From the NCBI GenBank assembly GCA_003221515.1, contig QHSI01000028.1, positions 1 through 42,170 on the forward strand: DNA of 42,170 nucleotides. Reading direction: 5' to 3'. The notes below the pieces were generated by a model that was not told the origin of the DNA, made no database searches, and worked only from the letters and a program-made list of their open reading frames with translations. Positions within the stretch are counted from its first letter, which is position 1. Every line of letters starts with the position of its first letter. Shown piece after piece: positions 7,731-10,810 of the stretch. The DNA comes from Candidatus Rokuibacteriota bacterium (GTDB lineage: Bacteria; Methylomirabilota; Methylomirabilia; Rokubacteriales; CSP1-6). The translations under genes were made by a program, and so were the position numbers.

Positions 7731-7853
7731 CCGGGGGCCGAGAGAGGCCCAGATGCGAGGCGCCGCCCGAAGGCGGCGCGCGAGCGTACTTCGAGTACGT
7801 GAGCGTGCCGCCGAGGGCGGCAACGAAGCAGATGGGCCTCTATCGGCCCCCGG
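7731..7853. repeat. multi-branched inverted repeat (cloverleaf-like)
   Basis: Outer arms 7731-7751 and 7833-7853 pair over 21 positions with one mismatch (7742/7842). They enclose three perfect small hairpins: 7760-7767 with 7772-7779 (loop CGAA), 7785-7790 with 7794-7799 (loop TCG), and 7806-7812 with 7816-7822 (loop GAG). The right outer arm covers the last codons and stop of the ThyX-like gene. The design looks like a mobile repetitive extragenic element or a structured 3' RNA; only one copy is in the window. Confidence 0.75.
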
Positions 7854-9456
7854 AGGACCCCCGGCGCCGAGCCGCCGCGCGTTCGGCTTCCAGTCGCTCG
7901 AGATCGACGGTCGAATGATCGGCGAACGTCATCGCGGCGGCGATGGCCGGATGGCGCGCGGCGATGAGCCGGTGCATGGCCTGGCAGATCCGCCGGTACG
8001 CCGGGTGTCCCTGCGGCGTGGTCCGCAGCTCGATCACGTGCATCGCCTCGCGCGCGTTCATCTCCATGTAGAAGCGGACGCGATACGCCATGGACACCGC
8101 GTAGGCGGCGACGTCCGGCAATCCTGCGGCCTCGATCGCGTCGTGGAGCTCGGCCGACTCCCCCAGCACGCGACGCCAGTCCTCGGCGGCGCCGGCCTCG
8201 TCGATCTCCTCGGGCATGACATAGCCGTGGCCCGGCGTGAGCCGCTGCCACTCGAGCGTGAGCAGGCGGTGCCGCTGCAGGTCGCGGAACGCGCCGTAGT
8301 CGCCGAGCACGTCGAAGCGATAGGACGTGCGCTCGAACGCGCGGCCGGGCTTGTGGCGCCGGTTCAGCCGCTTGCCGACGTAAGCCGCCAGCACCGCGCT
8401 GCGCTCGTCCGCCGTCATCCGCCGCGCGGTCTCCAGCAGCTCGGCGTCCCCTCGACTCGAGACCGCGTAGAGCGCGGCGGCGACGATCTTCACCTCGCCA
8501 TCGGGATCGAAGTCGGTGAGCGCGACGACTGCGTCGGGCGTCCTCGTGGTGCGCGACGCGGACATCGGCGGCACCAGCCGCCGCGCGACCTCACGCGTCT
8601 CCTTGCGCGTCTCCTCGAGATATGCGGACCAGGCGCCGCCCCGTTCCGGCACGTCGAGCCGCTTGAGGAACGCGGGGATGACCTTCCGCAGCTCGATCAG
8701 TATCAGGTCGGCGTAGTCCCGAACCTCGCGCAGCGGGTGGGCGCGCATCCGGAGCAGGAGCTGCTCGTATCCTTGGCCCGTGCCGTAGATCCCCACGTTC
8801 GACGTCGTCGCCGCGGGCAGCAGGCCGCGGAGCGTGTCGAGGGCCTTGGCGCGGATCGTCATCCGGTATACGCCCTCGGCCTCGGCCGGATCACGCGGGA
8901 ACTTCGCCTCGTAGAACGCTCGCAGCTTGGGGAGCCAGGCGCGGTAGGTGTCGAAGCACCGGTCGAGCGTCGCGACGTAGCGATCGTGGAGCGAGCCCGT
9001 CAGCTCGGCAGGCACGTGATAGCGGTACCGGCCGTCCGGCCGATCGTCGTAGGGAATGTAGCGCGTCGACTGCTCGAGGTAGGCCATCAAGCGGCCCCAC
9101 TCGAGCACCTTGGTCAGGAGGTTGGAGGCGCCCTCGCACGCCAGGTGCACGCCGCCGAGCTGGGCCACCGAATCGTCGCCGTACTCGCTGAGCACGCGCT
9201 CGTAGAGCTGCTCGGCCCGCTGCGTGCCGGCCTCGGCGTGCGCCGCGCCGCGGCCGGCCGCGGCGGACAGGCCGGCGGCCCCCACGAACTCGTCGACGAA
9301 GAGGCGGCGCAGCGACTTCGGCGACCGGGAGTAGCGGGCGAAGAGGGCGCCCTTCACGACCTCGGGGAGGTCGACGAGCGCGAACACGGGGCCGGTGAGG
9401 CTGGTGAAGTACGGGGCGAGGGCGGCCTGCTCGCTTGCGCTGAACTCTTCGGCCAT
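7840..9456 (-). CDS. double-domain FAD-dependent thymidylate synthase-like protein
   Basis: A 538-residue protein made of two tandem ThyX-like domains, about twice the usual 220-250. The N-terminal half keeps the serine side of the ThyX signature: R122-x7-S130 followed by TRY, with the preceding RH replaced by WG. The C-terminal half keeps R395-H396-R397 but has R405 where the serine should be. Both halves retain C-terminal blocks of the family (RMRAHPLREVRDYAD; NAREAMHVIELR). It may thus be a fused heterodimer-like ThyX or a derived flavoprotein. ATG 9456 follows TAAGAT by 8 nt; an in-frame GTG at 9474 is less likely. The 3' end lies in the inverted repeat. Confidence 0.8.
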   Translation of the reverse strand: MAEEFSASEQAALAPYFTSLTGPVFALVDLPEVVKGALFARYSRSPKSLRRLFVDEFVGAAGLSAAAGRGAAHAEAGTQRAEQLYERVLSEYGDDSVAQLGGVHLACEGASNLLTKVLEWGRLMAYLEQSTRYIPYDDRPDGRYRYHVPAELTGSLHDRYVATLDRCFDTYRAWLPKLRAFYEAKFPRDPAEAEGVYRMTIRAKALDTLRGLLPAATTSNVGIYGTGQGYEQLLLRMRAHPLREVRDYADLILIELRKVIPAFLKRLDVPERGGAWSAYLEETRKETREVARRLVPPMSASRTTRTPDAVVALTDFDPDGEVKIVAAALYAVSSRGDAELLETARRMTADERSAVLAAYVGKRLNRRHKPGRAFERTSYRFDVLGDYGAFRDLQRHRLLTLEWQRLTPGHGYVMPEEIDEAGAAEDWRRVLGESAELHDAIEAAGLPDVAAYAVSMAYRVRFYMEMNAREAMHVIELRTTPQGHPAYRRICQAMHRLIAARHPAIAAAMTFADHSTVDLERLEAERAAARRRGSSGGR

Positions 9457-9464
9457 CCCCCGCG

Positions 9465-9473
9465 ATCTTAGCA
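9465..9473 (-). promoter_or_regulatory. candidate extended -10 (TGCTAAGAT), leaderless
   Basis: TGC plus TAAGAT on the reverse strand lies 8 nt before ATG 9456 of the ThyX-like gene. If used, it excludes the upstream GTG start at 9474, which would lie upstream of the transcription start. Confidence 0.4.
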
Positions 9474-9604
9474 CCAGGCTGCCGCCTGCAGCCCGTCCTG
9501 AATCTGCCCGTCTTGAATCTTGAATCCGCTCGCGAACGGTACTACCATCCCCGCGTTACGGCCCCGATGTGCCGTGTCCTTCACCGTCGAAAGGAGTACG
9601 TCGC

Positions 9605-10810
9605 ATGAGGCGCAAAGCACTGCTCGTCGCCACCCTGATGCTGGCCGGCCTGATCGCGAGCGCACCCGCCGCGCTGGCCCAAACCGACTGCACCAAGGTC
9701 GTCCCGCCCTCGCCGTGGGGACCGAACGACCAGACCGGCGCCACCAACCGGGTGACACCGGCCGTCACGAAGGCCGCGGCCGCGGAGATCAAGGACGGCA
9801 AGGTCGTCGTCATGTCGTACCCGCTGACCGACGGGATTCCGCTCTTCGGAACGCGGTTCTCGAAGACGATCCTGACCGCGACGACGCTCGCCCCCGGCGG
9901 GGCGCTCGGCGAGAACCAGCTGACGTACATGGAGGACACCTGGCTGAGCCAGAGCCACGTGGGGACGCACCTCGACGGCATGGGGCACATCGGCCGCAAG
10001 GATTGCTACTTCAATCAGATCGCGATGGGCAAGTTCATCACGCAGAACAACATGACCAAGCTCGGTCTCGAGCACCTGAAGTCGTTCGCGACGCGCGGCG
10101 TGATCGTCGACATGGTCAAGGTCTATCAGGCCGCCGGCAAGTTCAAAGGCAACTCGGCGTGCAAGAAGCCCTGCATCGAGAAGGGCACCGTCATCACGAA
10201 GGCGGACATCGAGGCCGGCCTCAAGATGTACAACGTGACGCTGCGTGAAGGCGACATCCTCATCGTCCACACCGGCTGGGGCAACCTGTTCGAACAGTAC
10301 CCGGCGCAGAACGCCGTGTACAACTCGGGCGAGCCCGGCATCGGCAAAGAGGCGGCGGCCTGGCTCGTGTCCCAGAAGATCGTCGCGGTCGGCTCCGACA
10401 CCTGGGGCGTCGAGGTGATCCCCGGCGAGGACCCGAAGGAAGCGTTCATCGTCCACAACAGCTGGGGCAACCTGTTCGAACAGTACCCGGCGCAGAACGC
10501 CGTGTACAACTCGGGCGAGCCCGGCATCGGCAAAGAGGCGGCGGCCTGGCTCGTGTCCCAGAAGATCGTCGCGGTCGGCTCTGACACCTGGGGCGTCGAG
10601 GTGATCCCCGGCGAGGACCCGAAGGAAGCGTTCATCGTCCACAACATCCTGCTGACCGACGCCGGCATCCACATCATCGAGAACGTGCGGACGGATTTGA
10701 TGGCCGCCGAAGCCGATCAGACCAAGCGCGCGACGTTCTTCTTCAGCATGACCGTGCCCAAGGCGGTCGGGCTGACCGGCAACTTCGTCGCGATCGAGGG
10801 CATCCGCTAG
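9605..10810 (+). CDS. secreted cyclase-family (kynurenine formamidase-like) protein with internal duplication
   Basis: A 401-residue protein of the Pfam Cyclase family, metal-dependent hydrolases that include kynurenine formamidase. It has a signal peptide (residues 1-26, ending ALAQ) and the metal-binding motif HVGTHLDGMGH. From residue 225 a 62-residue block (GNLFEQYP... to ...EAFIVHN) occurs twice in succession. Without the second copy the protein would have about 339 residues, the expected size. The block contains conserved GSDTWGVEVIPG, so the fold may be disturbed or one copy may loop out. A good AAAGGAG site precedes ATG 9605. The next gene encodes a periplasmic binding protein. Confidence 0.88.
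   Translation: MRRKALLVATLMLAGLIASAPAALAQTDCTKVVPPSPWGPNDQTGATNRVTPAVTKAAAAEIKDGKVVVMSYPLTDGIPLFGTRFSKTILTATTLAPGGALGENQLTYMEDTWLSQSHVGTHLDGMGHIGRKDCYFNQIAMGKFITQNNMTKLGLEHLKSFATRGVIVDMVKVYQAAGKFKGNSACKKPCIEKGTVITKADIEAGLKMYNVTLREGDILIVHTGWGNLFEQYPAQNAVYNSGEPGIGKEAAAWLVSQKIVAVGSDTWGVEVIPGEDPKEAFIVHNSWGNLFEQYPAQNAVYNSGEPGIGKEAAAWLVSQKIVAVGSDTWGVEVIPGEDPKEAFIVHNILLTDAGIHIIENVRTDLMAAEADQTKRATFFFSMTVPKAVGLTGNFVAIEGIR
10277..10648 (+). repeat. 186-bp in-frame tandem duplication inside the cyclase gene
   Basis: Copy 1 is 10277-10462 and copy 2 is 10463-10648. Apart from the few bases next to the junction, they differ at one place that I can see: C at 10396 versus T at 10582, a silent serine change. 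The sequence TCATCGTCCACA occurs before copy 1, at the junction and at the end of copy 2, so unequal exchange at this 12-bp homology explains the event. The near identity means it is recent, or an assembly error. Confidence 0.95.

Follow-up and report, generated by a model that had tools for sequence, protein, structure and literature searches.

Complementary active-site halves in a duplicated and fused ThyX, the predicted thymidylate synthase of a Rokubacteria genome

Organisms whose sole thymidylate synthase is ThyX cannot do without it, and the enzyme is a drug target. Its active site is shared among subunits: in M. tuberculosis ThyX, the pocket is built from the RHR motif and Arg199 of subunit A, from Ser71 and Arg190 of subunit B, and from Ser105, Arg107, and Tyr108 of subunit C, together with a backbone contact of Gln103 (PMC6514825). 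In the T. maritima ThyX numbering that is used hereafter for active-site residues, Arg199 corresponds to Arg174, the subunit B pair to positions 55 and 165, and the subunit C residues to positions 88, 90, 91, and 86, respectively. In the T. maritima enzyme, Arg78 stabilises the reduced flavin, and contacts to the flavin, the folate, and Tyr91 come from His53 of a third monomer (PMC11940539); Arg174 activates dUMP, and consumption of the flavin carbinolamine is much slower in the S88A, R90A, and Y91A variants (PMC8316439). A duplicated ThyX was reported in Chloroflexi by Valas and Bourne in 2009, and their paper describes it as 'not characterized' and as the one thymidylate synthase that those genomes encode (PMC3224940).

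Here, we analysed a 42,170-nucleotide stretch (hereafter, the window) of contig QHSI01000028.1 from the soil bacterium Candidatus Rokuibacteriota bacterium. A first-pass annotation, made from the sequence alone, had placed a double ThyX protein at positions 7840-9456; these coordinates are right, and Pfam PF02511 (Thy1) matches two stretches of the encoded protein with 139.5 bits in total. The gene lies on the reverse strand and encodes 538 residues from an ATG (MAEEFSA start), and its homologues begin to align near this point. An alternative GTG at position 9474 (7840..9474, reverse strand) would give 544 residues, with residue numbers shifted by +6 relative to the 538-residue frame. The N-terminal Thy1 domain (8671..9237, reverse strand; 60.2 bits) and the C-terminal one (7948..8520, reverse strand; 77.7 bits) both exceed the curated PF02511 cut-off of 24.8 bits, and the curated model of canonical ThyX (equivalog TIGR02170, NCBIfam) scores the protein at 64.9 bits, below its cut-off of 87.9. 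Moreover, the RHRx7S motif is absent from either single domain, as the N-terminal half is without RH and the C-terminal half is without the serine. Because no single domain carries the motif and the equivalog score falls short, we keep the double protein apart from canonical ThyX. The genes around it in the window (TetR, DinB, and cyclase genes) gave no functional hint. The adjacent cyclase-family open reading frame (9569-10810, forward strand) contains a direct repeat (10275-10581) of 121 identical bases, with copies 186 bases apart and 61 identical residues, which arose either by recent duplication or through misassembly.

Structure prediction, which had been suggested with the initial annotation, revealed the ThyX fold in both halves. 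A model of the whole protein, built from 61 aligned homologues, reached a pLDDT of 87.3 and a pTM of 0.86, the latter suggesting that the two modelled halves of the chain pack in a defined way. In this predicted model, the C-terminal half superimposes on the solved ThyX chain 6j61_C with a Z of 17.0 and an rmsd of 2.6 over 185 aligned residues. The N-terminal half, modelled alone (pLDDT 84.8, pTM 0.83), superimposes on M. tuberculosis ThyX (3hzg_A) with a Z of 14.1 and an rmsd of 4.4 over 199 aligned residues, while unrelated chains in the same comparison scored a Z of about 5 or below.

To locate the active-site residues, both halves were aligned with the ThyX of T. maritima, that of M. tuberculosis, and the single ThyX proteins of the window's class. 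The N-terminal half retains a serine at position 55, Glu86, Ser88, Arg90, Tyr91, and Arg147, and is without His79 and mostly without Arg78. The C-terminal half retains Arg78, His79, Arg80, Asn163, Arg165, and Arg174, and is without the residues at 86, 88, 90, 91, and 147. From the T. maritima structures, we take Arg147 to belong with the subunit C role. Set against the published subunit partition, the subunit A set is thus found in the C-terminal half only and the subunit C set in the N-terminal half only, and all residues of these two roles occur across the two halves, as expected of a composite site. The initial annotation had read the N-terminal motif as R122-x7-S130-TRY (538-residue numbering), with RH gone, and the C-terminal one as R395-H396-R397 with R405 at the serine position; both readings hold, the full N-terminal stretch being W120-G121-R122-x7-S130-T131-R132-Y133, in which R, S, and RY are retained. 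Our residue alignment adds that the N-terminal half also retains the equivalents of Glu86, Tyr91, and Arg147, and that the C-terminal half has lost those of Glu86, Arg90, Tyr91, and Arg147 as well, yet retains Arg174. The proposal that the halves complement each other in a pseudo-dimer therefore fits at all mapped residues and matches the subunit partition of PMC6514825.

The conservation of this pattern was followed through 95 distinct and nine distant homologues. In the N-terminal half, the stretch E-Q-S-T-R-Y (9058..9075, reverse strand), which holds Glu86, Ser88, Arg90, and Tyr91, has its E, S, R, and Y invariant in all of them. The arginine equivalent to Arg147 (8827..8829, reverse strand) is invariant in the 103 of 103 homologues having a residue there, and the serine equivalent to T. 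maritima Thr55 and M. tuberculosis Ser71 (9169..9171, reverse strand), which belongs to the subunit B role at the FAD phosphate, is found in 103/103. At the RHR position of the same half, W-G-R stands in the window protein (9091..9099, reverse strand); the histidine is missing in 104/104, and the first arginine is replaced by W, D, or other residues in most homologues and retained in 19 (n = 104). In the C-terminal half, R-H-R (Arg78-His79-Arg80; 8266..8274, reverse strand) is retained in all 103 homologues having these residues, with three plasmid members showing RHNR at this site, and the arginine equivalent to Arg174 (8023..8025, reverse strand), the residue of dUMP activation according to PMC8316439, is retained in 99/99. 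The N-A-R stretch (Asn163 and Arg165; 8050..8058, reverse strand) is present in 90/90 members of groups I and II having the residue, and is not retained in phage and Bacillus-plasmid members. The positions of Glu86, Ser88, and Arg90 are occupied in the C-terminal half by W-Q-R-L-T (8236..8250, reverse strand); according to the residue table of the homologues, no Glu, Arg, or Tyr occurs at the equivalents of 86, 90, and 91, and a serine occurs at that of 88 in 2/104. Across all 95 + 9 homologues, the lost positions are either variable or fixed as another residue. Conservation of the signature halves had been named early on as a check on the annotation, and since the split is invariant in the 95 distinct and nine distant homologues, it is not due to chance.

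Of the subunit B residues, His53 and Arg165 are retained in the N-terminal halves of a second double type from the window's class (families f5 and f7; 34-36% identity to the window protein in two comparisons) and of the Bacillus/Paenibacillus plasmid members. In the window's own group (group I), the N-terminal half carries D, S, and Q at 53, 55, and 165, so that this part of the role appears worn down, and His53 is gone from both halves, being D in the N-terminal and P in the C-terminal one. Therefore, folate binding in this group must differ in part.

Homologues of the double protein occur in several phyla as well as in phages and on plasmids, and were assembled independently. The nine distant members, from phages, plasmids, and Parabacteroides, show the identical residue partition at identities as low as about 23%, and the split is unchanged in phage and Bacillus/Paenibacillus members with 22-26% identity to the window protein. 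These distant members include a viral contig, phage Tunturi_5, and Vibrio jumbo phages, as well as plasmid records from Euzebya, Miltoncostaea, Parabacteroides distasonis, Paenibacillus, and Bacillus; in our judgement, the genes of the P. distasonis record look chromosomal despite its label. In this cultured gut bacterium, a dihydrofolate reductase gene lies four genes downstream of the split double ThyX. In a phylogenetic tree, in which long branches meet and which should be read with corresponding caution, the N-terminal halves form one clade (100/99) and the C-terminal halves another (91/97), apart from single ThyX; one old duplication fits this separation. Two features of the single-domain proteins were also recorded. 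One ThyX of the same class (G014:C83:34400-38100, locus L101) bears, just before its RHR, a long insert in a 627-residue open frame that looks like an intein, and the single ThyX proteins of the sister families f6 and f10 (loci L084, L085, L088, and L113) carry RHR-x8-S instead of RHR-x7-S.

Whether the window's genome holds another thymidylate synthase had been raised with the initial annotation, and profile searches of that genome detected neither ThyA (PF00303) nor any other ThyX. FolA, whose absence is expected for cells using a ThyX reaction, was likewise missing from the genome and from the class, apart from one contig (L131) discussed below, and matches to thymidine kinase were weak, partial, and not credible. 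Of 57 family genomes searched, 46 contain a Thy1 match and four more yielded fragments when searched with the double protein itself; the remaining seven, in which both searches left no trace of the gene, count against this role, although they may be incomplete assemblies. The search was extended to 50 further genomes from other groups, and as these had been chosen for carrying the double gene, their counts speak for mutual exclusion and not for frequency: ThyA was found in 0/50, and no other intact ThyX gene in 49/50, two of them having an additional match that is partial or broken. The single exception, a Gemmatimonadetes metagenome-assembled genome (G095), has a canonical ThyX alongside the double one, which lies on a 3.4-kb contig and is likely misbinned.

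The single full-length ThyA of the window's family, with FolA beside it, is in genome G089 on contig L131 (G089:C74), and a natural swap of enzymes was considered and rejected. The contig has 50% G+C, as against 69% in the window, its ribosomal and nucleotide genes look foreign, and we regard it as probable contamination; it also carries a thymidylate-kinase-like gene. Weak ThyA matches in two other genomes (G006 and G007) covered the middle of the profile only and were not counted. With the queries used, the loci of the double gene in bacterial genomes showed no adjacent gene of the dNTP pathway. In phage Tunturi_5, the double ThyX directly follows a dCMP deaminase gene and has a dUTPase gene nearby, and in Euzebya, dcd is the third gene upstream. 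The best reading of these genomic data is that the double protein is the predicted sole thymidylate synthase of its organism.

Judging from sequence and fold together, we consider it highly probable that the window encodes a duplicated and fused ThyX, in which each copy has given up those parts of the site that its partner provides, and that this protein is the organism's predicted thymidylate synthase. In the proposed mechanism, ThyX would have been duplicated and fused, followed by complementary loss of active-site parts between the copies. The C-terminal half would act as the flavin side (subunit A role), binding FAD through Arg78-His79-Arg80 and activating dUMP through Arg174. The N-terminal half would act as the dUMP side (subunit C role, and probably the subunit B role as well), binding and covering dUMP with Glu86, Ser88, Arg90, Tyr91, and Arg147. 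Two chains would then assemble into a pseudo-tetramer that resembles ordinary ThyX in shape and has two composite sites in place of four. The subunit B role (His53, Thr/Ser55, and Arg165) is probably played by the N-terminal half of the second chain, because the f5/f7 and Bacillus-plasmid types retain these residues there, whereas in the window's own group, where they are worn down, this half may or may not play it; a full site would thus probably need the second chain, and a single pseudo-dimer may be insufficient. The predicted reaction would convert dUMP, methylene-THF, and NADPH to dTMP and THF via reduced FAD, and one copy of each T. maritima role residue is indeed retained in the double protein, except for His53 in group I.

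Other explanations of the double protein were weighed against the same data. It might be a flavoenzyme with another job, such as methylation of UMP as in PolB or that of a ThyX-like protein dispensable for thymidylate, which would then be provided by an unknown enzyme or by salvage. The score below the TIGR02170 cut-off and the loss of His53 from both halves of group I would agree with such a function, as would the fold, which is also that of PolB and of the dispensable C. glutamicum ThyX; according to the titles of structures 3ge9 and 4p5a, the latter is not the cell's thymidylate synthase and PolB also accepts UMP. However, each residue that contacts dUMP or FAD in roles A and C occurs once across the two halves, the carrier genomes contain no other known synthase and no convincing thymidine kinase, and genes close to the Euzebya copy and to a phage copy encode enzymes producing dUMP or dUTP, so that we regard another job as unlikely.

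Catalysis by the C-terminal half alone, as a normal ThyX-like homo-oligomer with the N-terminal half as a structural or regulatory leftover, appears more improbable still. This half does hold RHR, NAR, and Arg174, and both its Pfam score and its fold Z are higher than those of its partner, but it is missing Glu86, Ser88, Arg90, Tyr91, and Arg147, all of which are present without exception in the N-terminal half, and the slow S88A, R90A, and Y91A variants of T. maritima ThyX (PMC8316439) speak against a site that does without them. A leftover is further disfavoured because it would not retain exactly the residues that its partner lacks. That the gene is a pseudogene in decay, or that misassembly joined two thyX genes, is scarcely conceivable: the exact 61-residue repeat in the neighbouring frame makes local artefacts possible, but the double gene has an open frame with many invariant residues, and its independently assembled homologues span several phyla as well as phages and plasmids.

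The preferred reading, a fused enzyme with complementary halves, would be a clear case in which a multi-subunit enzyme was duplicated and the copies then lost complementary parts of the active site. Separation of the subunit roles would allow each of them to be changed alone, which is hard in a homotetramer, where any substitution affects all the sites at once. The preferred reading further suggests which enzyme makes dTMP in Rokubacteria, Vicinamibacteria, Acidimicrobiia, and others. In this branch of ThyX, the homotetramer has likely been replaced by a fused enzyme of complementary domains, on which many uncultured bacteria of soil and freshwater would depend as their sole thymidylate synthase.

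Compared with the closest known systems, the double protein shares with T. maritima (TM0449) and M. tuberculosis ThyX the Thy1 domain, the fold, and the residues contacting FAD and dUMP. It differs in having two domains per chain, each with an incomplete site and neither with RHRx7S, and in a predicted two sites per four domains as opposed to four. The tandem architecture is that of the duplicated Chloroflexi ThyX, which likely belongs to the same family; the passages of that report considered here contain no residue analysis (PMC3224940). Tandem ThyX has hence been known since 2009, and a split ThyX site or complementary loss between halves was not found in the literature that we searched, which consisted mainly of open-access journal articles. 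Public-record proteins from Euzebya, P. distasonis, the Bacillus/Paenibacillus plasmids, and Tunturi_5 share both the double architecture and the residue partition, and are named 'FAD-dependent thymidylate synthase' or 'thymidylate synthase', as deposited or by automatic annotation. To our knowledge, none of them has had its function tested. In mammalian adenylyl cyclase, the homologous C1 and C2 domains of one chain form one common catalytic site, and although this enzyme belongs to an unrelated family and catalyses an unrelated reaction, its C1/C2 pair works alike to the arrangement proposed here for the double ThyX.
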